Below, one piece after another: positions 36,084-45,678 of a DNA stretch of 49,814 nucleotides. The first letter of the stretch is position 1; the number at the start of each line of letters is the position of its first letter. The DNA is taken from positions 31,619-81,432 of the forward strand of contig DTZW01000322.1 in NCBI GenBank assembly GCA_012961165.1, written 5' to 3'. The translations under genes were made by a program, and so were the position numbers. The DNA is from Gammaproteobacteria bacterium (lineage in GTDB: Bacteria; Pseudomonadota; Gammaproteobacteria; Pseudomonadales; Azotimanducaceae). A model generated the notes under the pieces. The model was not told where the DNA came from, did not search any database, and saw nothing but the letters and a program-made list of their open reading frames with translations.

Positions 36084-37340
36084 CTAGATTCCGGGAACCG
36101 GAAACTTTTTGCAGAAGGTTTCGACGGCACCCTTGATTTCACCGATGACGGCTTCGTCATCAGGAGATCGCAGGCAACGATCAATCCACTCACCTAGCTG
36201 CTTCATGTCCACTTCGACCATACCTCGAGCGGTCGCGGCCGGGGTACCGATCCTGATCCCGCTGGGTCGCAGGGGCGGCAGTGGATCATCAGGAATGATC
36301 TGTTTATTGGTTGTGATATTCACCTTATCGAGCGTTTCTTCAGCAACCCGGCCATCAAGACCGTAACTCTCCATCGTATCAACAACCATCATATGATTGT
36401 CTGTACCGCCGGTGACCAGGCTTGCCTGCCGTTGCATCAGTTCATTCGCAAGCATTTTGCTGTTAACGAGCACCTGCTGCGCGTAATCCTTGAATTCCTG
36501 TGTCTGGGCACGCTTCAGGGTCACCGCAATGCCAGCAATAGCATTCATATGAGGCCCCCCCTGCAGTCCTGGAAAGACTGATTTGTCGATTTTGCTCGCA
36601 AATTCTTTCTTGCAGAGCACCATCCCACCTCGTGGACCTCGCAGGGACTTATGCGTCGTCGTCGTCACTACGTCAAACCCGAAATCGAAGGGGTTACGCA
36701 TCGCCTCACCCGCAACCAGCCCGCCAAAGTGAGACGCATCAGTCATGGTGATCGCACCGACCTCATCGGCGATCGCCTTGAAATTCTCGTAATCGATATC
36801 GCGGGGATAAGAGGTATAACCGCAAAGCACCATCTTGGGTTTGTGCTCAAGTGCGTCTTTTCGAACCTGGTCGTAGTCAATAGAACCATCAACGGGATTG
36901 GTAACATAACGGACGAAATTGAAGAGCTTACCCATGTGCGAAACCGGCGCGCCATGTGTCAGGTGACCACCGTGGGACAAATCCATCGCCAGAATGGAAT
37001 CTCCCGGTTCAAGCAACCCAAGATAAACCGCCTGGTTCATCGCAGAGCCTGACAGTGGCTGCACATTGGCGTGTTCACACTTAAAAACTGCCTTTGCCCG
37101 GTCCCTTGCCAGCGTTTCAATCTGGTCTGTGTATTCCTGGCCGCCGTAATAACGGCGCCCGGGATAGCCTTCTGAATATTTGTTGGTGAACACACTGCCA
37201 AGCGTGGACAACACTTCAGGGAAGGTATAGTTCTCCGAGGGGATGAGTTCGATGCCGGACTTCTGTCGCTGTTCTTCGCCTTTGAGAGCGGCGTATACGT
37301 CCGGGTCTTGTTGTTGCAGGATCTCTAAATTACTGGTCAA
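36084..37340 (-). CDS. glyA: Serine hydroxymethyltransferase
   Basis: 418 aa; SGIELIPSENYTFPEVLSTLGSVFTNKYSEGYPGRRYYGG, VVTTTTHKSLRGPRGGMV. Confidence 0.97.
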   Translation of the reverse strand: MTSNLEILQQQDPDVYAALKGEEQRQKSGIELIPSENYTFPEVLSTLGSVFTNKYSEGYPGRRYYGGQEYTDQIETLARDRAKAVFKCEHANVQPLSGSAMNQAVYLGLLEPGDSILAMDLSHGGHLTHGAPVSHMGKLFNFVRYVTNPVDGSIDYDQVRKDALEHKPKMVLCGYTSYPRDIDYENFKAIADEVGAITMTDASHFGGLVAGEAMRNPFDFGFDVVTTTTHKSLRGPRGGMVLCKKEFASKIDKSVFPGLQGGPHMNAIAGIAVTLKRAQTQEFKDYAQQVLVNSKMLANELMQRQASLVTGGTDNHMMVVDTMESYGLDGRVAEETLDKVNITTNKQIIPDDPLPPLRPSGIRIGTPAATARGMVEVDMKQLGEWIDRCLRSPDDEAVIGEIKGAVETFCKKFPVPGI

Positions 37341-37577
37341 TGGGCTGACTCCCGTGTTTGGTGGTGGGCGCCCAGGCGAACGGCTTCAATCTTGAATCAC
37401 ACTTCCCGGTGGTTGGATCCACCTTAATTATCGCCAGTCATGTGAAGCCCGAAATTCTAACCGTTGCCTCCCTTTATTGAAATGGTGGTTTGCGGAATTC
37501 TTCTCAATTGTGGACCAATCGGGCTCATCATGATGCTACATTAGGGCCTCCTAATGTGAACCAACAGACAAAAGACA

Positions 37578-43474: not shown

Positions 43475-44326
43475 AAGAAAAACGGCACCGGCGCAAGTGG
43501 CGATGACCATCACAAAGAGCAACCATTTTAACGTGTTTTGACTGACGTTAATGGCAAATCGAACACTGGCCATTGCACCGGCAATACTGCCAACGGCCAA
43601 TATCATGCCGGGGATCCACCAGACCTGGCCTCGCATCGCAAAAACAACCAGCGCAACACCTGAAAAGACCCCCGTGCACACAGATTTGAGCGCGTTCGTC
43701 CTGATCAGGTCATAACGAAGCCCCCCTGCTAGGGCGGCGATAAGAATGAACCCAACACCCGCCTGGACAAATCCACCGTAAACACCCGCCAGAAAAAGTC
43801 CAAGACCTGCAACCGGTCTATCCGCCAGCTTGTAGGGTTCGGTGCCGTCGACAGGAATGACGGCCTGCGGCCTAATCACCATCACCAATGCTATAATGAT
43901 CATCGAACCTAACAGTACGGGTTTAAGAACCCAGACGGGCAGGAAGGAAGCCAGCAGCGAGCCTGCCAGCGCGCCGACGAGCGCTGGAACCAAAACCGGT
44001 AAAATTGTCGACTTATCCAGCTTGTCCTGATCGCTAAAACCTTTTGCGCCCGTTATCGACTGCATTAAGACGCCGACCCGATTCGTGGCATTGGCAACAT
44101 CGGCCGGCATACCCAGCATCATCAACGCAGGCAAAGTCAGCATGGAGCCGCCCCCCGCCAGGGTATTGATGAAACCAGAAACCAACCCGGTAACCAACAG
44201 CAGGCAGATCATTAAAATTGAAAGTTCGTATTCCACTACTCTTAATCCGAAGGGAAAGCTGTCTGGTAGAAAAGGCAGCATGGTATAGCGGACACCAGCC
44301 GTTGTCACTGAGCAGGTCACTTGCAA
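43472..44326 (-). CDS. Sulfite exporter TauE/SafE-family permease
   Basis: 284 aa; GLVSGFINTLAGGGSMLTLPALMMLGMPADVANATNRVGVLMQS, second half LFLAGVYGGFVQAGVGFILIAAL. Confidence 0.92.
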   Translation of the reverse strand: MQVTCSVTTAGVRYTMLPFLPDSFPFGLRVVEYELSILMICLLLVTGLVSGFINTLAGGGSMLTLPALMMLGMPADVANATNRVGVLMQSITGAKGFSDQDKLDKSTILPVLVPALVGALAGSLLASFLPVWVLKPVLLGSMIIIALVMVIRPQAVIPVDGTEPYKLADRPVAGLGLFLAGVYGGFVQAGVGFILIAALAGGLRYDLIRTNALKSVCTGVFSGVALVVFAMRGQVWWIPGMILAVGSIAGAMASVRFAINVSQNTLKWLLFVMVIATCAGAVFL

Positions 44327-44356
44327 TCCCGCAGTAGAAGGCTATTATCCCCACCC

Positions 44357-44461
44357 ATGAAAATACGATTTACCCAGCGCTTTAGCAACCCAGCCAACCC
44401 GTCGACGGTGAATATCGTTGATGCGTGGTGGCTGGGCTATTACTTTTTCGTAAAAAGCTAA
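44357..44461 (+). CDS. Aromatic-rich leader peptide MKIRFTQRFSNPANPSTVNIVDAWWLGYYFFVKS
   Basis: 34-aa ORF (below the ORF-track cutoff) with consecutive Trp-Trp, Tyr-Tyr, Phe-Phe codons, followed by a terminator and the DAHP synthase gene. Confidence 0.85.
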   Translation: MKIRFTQRFSNPANPSTVNIVDAWWLGYYFFVKS

Positions 44462-44477
44462 ATCGCTCAACAATCTG

Positions 44478-44533
44478 GGCGGTTAATCCGCCTGAGAAAC
44501 CCCGACAGGCGGATGCCATCGGGGTTTTTTTTT
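44478..44533 (+). terminator. Attenuator: alternative hairpins and Rho-independent terminator
   Basis: Terminator AAACCCCGA (44497-44505)/TCGGGGTTT (44519-44527) + 9 T; competing ATCCGCCTG (44486-44494)/CAGGCGGAT (44506-44514); GGCGG/CCGCC hairpin upstream. Confidence 0.85.
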
Positions 44534-44577
44534 GCTTTTATAAGCCGAACAGCTAGCGACATAGACAGGACAACATC

Positions 44578-45678
44578 ATGAACGACATCAGACTGGATGA
44601 TTTAAACGTATTAAGCGAAGAAACCTTAATGAGGCCAAAAGCGCTGAAAGACAGTGTCCCAGCCTCCTCCCGGGCAATGGAAACAGTTGCAGGCGGCAGG
44701 CTTGCCATCAAAAAAATCCTGAACCGGCAAGATCCCAGGATTTTTCTGATCGTTGGCCCCTGCTCCATCCATGATACTGCCGCTGCGATGGAATATGCAC
44801 GGCGCCTGAAAACATTATCCGACGAAGTGGATGACTCACTTTTACTGATCATGCGTGTCTATTTTGAGAAGCCGCGCACAACAACGGGGTGGAAGGGATT
44901 GATCAATGATCCCCATATGGATGATTCATTCTGCATTGCAGAGGGACTAAAGTTGGGTCGAGAGCTGCTGGTCAATATTGCGGAGCTAGGATTACCAACT
45001 TCAACTGAGGCGCTCGACCCCGTAACCCCACAATATCTCCAGGATTTGATTTCCTGGAGTGCAATTGGCGCCAGAACGACTGAATCCCAGACTCACCGCG
45101 AAATGGCGAGTGGCCTGTCCTCTGCAGTTGGATTCAAAAATGGTACGGACGGTGGGTTTGACGTCGCGATTAATGCGCTGCAGTCAGTTTCAGCACCGCA
45201 CCGATTCCTTGGCATTAATCACCAGGGCCAGGTTTCGGTAATCCACACCCGGGGTAACGCGCACGCCCATATCGTGCTTCGAGGCGGTGGTGGACGAACG
45301 AATTATGATTCCGCCAGTGTGAGCCTCTGTGAACAGCGCCTTCTAAAGGCGAATATTCCGGCAAACATCATGATCGACTGCAGTCACGCCAATTCGAACA
45401 AGGACCCCGGCCTGCAGCGACTTGTGTCAAACAGCGCAGGTGACCAGATCGTCGGGGGGAACCAATCTATCATCGGCCTAATGGTCGAGAGCAACCTTGA
45501 ATGGGGAAACCAGCCTACTCCCGAAAACCTGGCTGATCTGAAATATGGCGTTTCGGTGACAGACGCCTGTGTAGACTGGGATACGACAGAGACAATGATT
45601 CGGGAACTGCGGGACAAGGTTAAGGATATATTACCGGGACGGAAACAGAACAAAACTCCTCCGACCCCGAATTCCTAG
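44578..45678 (+). CDS. 3-deoxy-7-phosphoheptulonate (DAHP) synthase, type I
   Basis: 366 aa; [79 protein letters not shown]. Confidence 0.97.

Follow-up and report, generated by a model that had tools for sequence, protein, structure and literature searches.

The window, by which the whole analysed stretch of 49,814 nucleotides is meant, contains at 44578–45678 on the + strand a gene for a class I (AroFGH-type) DAHP synthase of 366 amino acids. The identity of this putative regulated gene, proposed in an earlier note on the sequence, was borne out by matches to TIGR00034 (E 5e-142) and NF009395/PRK12755 (E 7e-153). Upstream, on the + strand like all the leader features described here, a small ORF of 34 codons, MKIRFTQRFSNPANPSTVNIVDAWWLGYYFFVKS*, occupies 44357–44461. 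As that note had described, it carries consecutive Trp, Tyr and Phe codons, TGG TGG (CTG GGC) TAT TAC TTT TTC, at 44426–44449. The ORF is preceded by a putative sigma-70-type promoter (44321–44348) with a -35 hexamer TTGCAA at 44321–44326, a 16-nt spacer and a -10 hexamer TATTAT at 44343–44348, which together give nine of the twelve consensus matches. An intrinsic terminator lies between the leader and the structural gene.

The six frames of the window were examined for runs of eight codons with at least six aromatic residues and all three kinds represented. The run at 44426–44449 was the only one found, with 0.27 such runs per window expected from first-order shuffles. Its rarity within the window alone is suggestive and gives modest, non-decisive support. 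The decisive point that the element is not due to chance is its conservation upstream of DAHP synthase orthologues, which is described below.

The RNA of the leader region can be divided into segments A to F following the scheme used for the attenuator of the his operon (hisL) of E. coli and Salmonella. In the minimum free energy fold, segment A (the GCGCTTTAGC region, 44376–44387) finds a partner in GCTAAATCGC, the region of the stop codon. Segment B (AATCGCTCA, 44461–44469), which starts on the final base of the leader stop, can pair with segment C (TGGGCGGTT, 44476–44484). Segment C can also pair with segment D (ATCCGCCTG, 44486–44494) by means of GGCGG (44478–44482) and CCGCC (44488–44492), the first small hairpin after the leader. 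The other partner of D is segment E' (CAGGCGGAT, 44506–44514) inside the terminator loop, a pairing written as D:E from here on. The terminator itself is made of segment E (AAACCCCGA, 44497–44505) as its 5' arm and segment F (TCGGGGTTT, 44519–44527), which runs into nine T residues at 44525–44533 so that F and the T run together span 44519–44533.

The competing pairs ATCCGCCTG/CAGGCGGAT and AAACCCCGA/TCGGGGTTT plus T9, which the earlier note had placed just before the DAHP synthase gene, are thus present and mutually exclusive. Its inventory of helices holds for C:D, D:E and E:F; it had overlooked the pairing partner B at 44461–44469. The same note had been unsure which stalled position would switch the structure, and this is answered by B, which starts at the stop codon and has C as its partner. 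The folding that it had called for gave, for the 206-nt leader region, a fold better than all of 200 shuffled sequences (z -5.4).

Conservation was examined in the upstream DNA of orthologous DAHP synthase genes from the GTDB family of the window, for which 78 loci had usable upstream sequence. At 69 of these, nine of them accepted by eye and one identical to another, a short leader closes with a cluster of aromatic codons and a terminator follows. The 69 loci come from 25 of the 26 genera. Some of the 69, for example L062 and L020, are degenerate or have no Trp at the expected place. Leader ends include CWLGYYFFVKS, WWLGYYFYVVS, FWQGYYFFIES, FWLGYFYFIDR and WWAGYYFFSG as well as SWQGFFTYFYM, GYWFFTS, FFWVRYFGRFTVA, GYWFAYPPR and GGNWYDYYDTR. 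Among the last 18 codons of the 57 distinct leaders, Trp is found in 53, Tyr in 56 and Phe in 51; all three are found in 46, and the remaining 11 miss one of them. The mean number of aromatic residues in these 18 codons is 5.6, and the other two frames average 1.9. Since the order of the aromatic residues varies, it is the type of codon that is conserved and not one peptide. The earlier note had reasoned that an aromatic run and competing stems without conservation in relatives would speak against an attenuator; conservation of both was found instead.

The element is absent at nine of the 78 family loci, one of which is a contig end. Within the genus of the window, the leader and terminator are lost at L012, L013, L014 and L016, which come from small or incomplete genomes (G006, G005, G012 and G007, respectively). 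Promoter-like sequence is still present at these loci, for example CTTGCAATCC...CTATTATTTC at L013.

Covariation was assessed by a permutation test on one sequence per genus from 22 genera. Cognate pairs of segments were better than reassigned pairs for B:C (z -6.6), D:E (z -6.6) and C:D (z -6.8), under a model in which relatedness between genera is not included, and none of 300 reassignments in the last draw was as good as the cognate pairing for any of the three. Segments used as negative controls in the same test gave z -1.1 for B:D and z +1.2 for B:E. The A:B helix is weakly supported across genera (z -2.1). Compensatory exchanges are seen as AUCGCUC/GGGCGGU, CUACCUUCC/GGAGGUAG, AACCACCU/AGGUGGUU and GCACUGuCCUCGAAC/GUUCGGAGGCAGUGC. 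The mutually exclusive antiterminator helices (B:C and D:E) and anti-antiterminator helix (C:D) are therefore each backed by covariation. In one genus, g47, the antiterminator of four loci (L075, L076, L084 and L087) apparently pairs with the 5' arm of the terminator (GCCUUCC/GGAAGGCCCCGC) and not with its loop.

The position of the codons relative to B is also consistent. By medians, the last aromatic codon starts 12 nt before the leader stop and B extends from +2 to +10 after it. The downstream edge of the ribosome was set 12 nt from the first base in the A site, a value known generally from toeprints. With this geometry, B is wholly free when the ribosome is held at 306 of 330 aromatic codons, while at least 70% of B is covered in 56 of 59 leaders when the stop codon is in the A site. 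The spacing from codons to stop to B therefore means that a stalled ribosome and one that has completed the leader give opposite accessibility of B. It is comparison between sequences that establishes this geometry, together with the leader, the type of codon, the B:C, C:D and D:E helices and the terminator.

Partition functions were calculated for the family leaders with the RNA ending just before F. With B free, the median probability was 0.86 for D:E and 0.00 for C:D, and with B covered these values were 0.32 and 0.43, respectively. For the window's own sequence before F, D:E was at 1.00 with B free and 0.98 with B covered at equilibrium, and once F was present E:F won whether B was free or covered. 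A pure equilibrium switch was rejected for the window sequence as D:E dominates in both states before F. Given that this dominance does not depend on B, the switch in the window must be kinetic. The C:D helix of the window is only 5 bp long, which accounts for the dominance of D:E; for the window sequence taken singly, this is a genuine weak point of the model.

The start of the leader shows a further regularity. In the window, the gap from the end of the -10 hexamer to the leader ATG is 8 nt and a Shine-Dalgarno sequence is absent before the ATG. Across the family a gap of 6–10 nt fits best; at 44 of 59 leaders both TTG and TANNNT are present, a combination seen at 4 of 323 control ATGs. Motifs resembling a Shine-Dalgarno sequence precede 2 of the 59 leader ATGs, compared with 45 of 59 DAHP synthase starts. 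The promoter spacing and the missing Shine-Dalgarno sequence suggest that the RNA on which the leader ORF is translated is probably leaderless or nearly so.

Applied to other genera, the ORF test turned up no leader of this kind among approximately 70 named loci (Pseudomonas, Marinobacter, Saccharospirillum and Microbulbifer are among the genera covered); one ORF among them, at L189, passed the filter with a Phe-rich run lacking Trp. No such leader was found at the loci tested from other families of Pseudomonadales, nor in approximately 60 other gammaproteobacterial loci (approximately 48 by the count for other gammaproteobacterial families), where a few other ORFs passed a loose filter. At L249 (genome G561, from another gammaproteobacterial family) a Tyr/Phe-rich ORF, MRPTYFSYYRYYRYTYFM*, is located shortly upstream of DAHP synthase. 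A hairpin follows the ORF but an evident terminator does not, and the locus was left out of the count. The loose DNA pattern TGGNNNGGNTAYTAYTTY was tried as a detector in 296 genomes of the order and dropped, since its matches were mostly scattered and roughly equalled in number those of the reversed pattern. Rfam gave no family at threshold in the window leader, and no amino-acid leader family (His_leader, Trp_leader and Phe_leader among them) was found even at E values up to 5.

Elsewhere in the genome of the window, inspection by eye showed no aromatic leader upstream of two chorismate-binding (trpE/pabB-like) genes, pheA or a second DAHP synthase. A second, partial DAHP synthase gene on contig G000:C443 (L004) is approximately 75% identical to that of the window and is possibly from another strain, the assembly being an estimated 8% contaminated. 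The window also contains a ZMP/ZTP riboswitch at 37363–37451 on the - strand (59.7 bits) just upstream of an ORF at 36084–37340 (- strand), which by eye reads as serine hydroxymethyltransferase (glyA); a ZMP/ZTP riboswitch before glyA is a known pairing.

The helices together fit a switch of the his type, in which B:C with D:E would give read-through and C:D with E:F would give termination. We infer the kinetics, the start of transcription and the response of the attenuator to amino acids, and these would be as follows. Judging from the position of the promoter, transcription would start at the leader ATG or a few bases before it and ribosomes would load on the leaderless mRNA. With all three aminoacyl-tRNAs plentiful, the ribosome would reach the stop codon and cover B, allowing C:D and E:F to form and transcription to terminate at the T run. 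If Trp, Tyr or Phe were short, the ribosome would stall at any of the six aromatic codons in 44426–44449, leaving B free to form B:C. D, released in this way, would pair with E', which lies in the loop of the terminator; F would not find a partner in time, and transcription would read through into DAHP synthase. In the absence of translation, an A:B helix may form and promote termination, a protector state for which the support across genera is weak, as noted above.

On these comparisons of sequence we consider it very likely that the element is a ribosome-mediated transcription attenuator controlling DAHP synthase, as the earlier note had suggested. Whether all three amino acids are truly sensed is less certain. 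The attenuator may effectively sense only one or two of them (Trp or Phe, for instance), in which case the remaining aromatic codons would be passengers. The aroR leader of Corynebacterium glutamicum, with Phe-Tyr-Phe, answers to Phe and not to Tyr (PMC11802643), and CW replaces WW in several leaders of the genus nearest the window. Against sensing of one or two amino acids, all three residues are kept together in 46 of 57 leaders despite the varying order and spacing, Trp is kept in 53 of them even though it is the rarest residue, and nearly every aromatic codon is placed such that a stall would expose B. We therefore regard such restricted sensing as possible but rather unlikely, and true sensing of Trp, Tyr and Phe, as three inputs, as moderately probable.

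A peptide effect of the TnaC type, where the nascent WxGYYFF would respond to some ligand, such as a free aromatic amino acid, by arresting the ribosome, is very improbable. Several genera keep the aromatic content with a different peptide (GYWFAYPPR, FFWVRYFGRFTVA, GGNWYDYYDTR, GYWFFTS), the residues directly before the stop are unconserved, and a biosynthetic gene would be regulated in the wrong direction by such a mechanism unless stalling led to termination. Arrest would account for the conservation of W-x-G in 16 of 22 genera and of W-x-G-[YF] in 13 of 22, which exceeds what codon sensing needs; RNA pairing, an effect of the peptide or shared descent are the candidate reasons for it. Intrinsic terminators and short ORFs are common, and a run of the kind seen is expected 0.27 times per window, yet a coincidental small ORF before an ordinary constitutive terminator has a negligible chance of being correct, being already contradicted by conservation in 25 genera, by covariation of three mutually exclusive helices and by the consistent geometry from codon to stop to B.

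Returning to the three-input attenuator, its broadest form, a family-wide, leaderless gate of the his type with codons for all three aromatic amino acids, controlling the enzyme with which the shikimate pathway begins and replacing repressor control in the style of E. coli, is in our estimation slightly favoured. Were this so, initiation at the leader would couple the gate directly to initiation conditions, and one RNA could integrate the signals from Trp, Tyr and Phe via stalling at any of the three types of codon. The varied order, number and spacing of the Trp, Tyr and Phe codons, together with compensating helices in 25 genera, form a data set suited to studying how codon position sets the response of an attenuator. 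The element is a candidate for a new cis-regulatory family in Rfam and approximately 70 small ORFs are worth annotating.

A literature search, in which subscription papers were mostly outside the coverage, returned no leader with Trp, Tyr and Phe for DAHP synthase and no such element in Pseudomonadales. The arrangement seems to be undescribed in the window's family, while the general type of switch is classical. As in hisL, a leader peptide with control codons is followed by the alternation of B:C/D:E with C:D/E:F, an E:F terminator and an optional A:B protector. Unlike hisL, the window element combines codons for three amino acids, precedes a DAHP synthase gene and has a predicted leaderless mRNA. 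The pheL and trpL leaders of E. coli also exert control through leader peptides, and the ilvG leader (ilvL) is multivalent, sampling several end products together. The element shares the leader-peptide logic of all three and the sampling of several products with ilvL. Among E. coli leaders, we know of none that covers Trp, Tyr and Phe at once.

The closest precedents are the aroR leader upstream of aroF in C. glutamicum and the uORFC-13-1 motif of Acholeplasma. For aroR, a Phe-Tyr-Phe leader is described that responds to Phe, Tyr availability being without effect (Neshat et al. 2014 as cited in PMC11802643; also PMC4046766). In that leader a Tyr codon is present although Tyr has no effect, so a codon does not in itself imply regulation. 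Both systems use a leader with aromatic codons for ribosome-mediated attenuation, predicted in the present case, of a DAHP synthase gene; the leaders described here have Trp, Tyr and Phe codons in place of Phe-Tyr-Phe, fall outside the aroR type and belong to a different phylum. The uORFC-13-1 motif, known from 24 sequences upstream of aroF in Acholeplasma and environmental samples, contains a stretch of U that encodes one Phe or more (PMC8632094). It resembles the window element in having a predicted uORF and terminator before a DAHP synthase gene, and differs in being described with Phe only. A 2009 scan of Shewanella lists a motif upstream of aroF and mentions that a Tyr-sensing attenuator had earlier been proposed for E. 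coli (PMC2659441). Attenuator ORFs of the leaderless kind are either established or under discussion for trpL of Sinorhizobium meliloti (PMC7298713) and ilvBNC of C. glutamicum (PMC11857589). The present leader ORF would likewise lie at or near the 5' end of its transcript, judging from the promoter spacing; trpL serves Trp only and ilvBNC the branched-chain amino acids, whereas this element has codons for three aromatic amino acids and is from a gammaproteobacterium. In E. coli, aroF and aroH are under the control of the repressors TyrR and TrpR (PMC11802643). E. coli employs isoenzymes with TyrR and TrpR for the one step that feeds three end products, whereas in the family of the window a single RNA may possibly serve.
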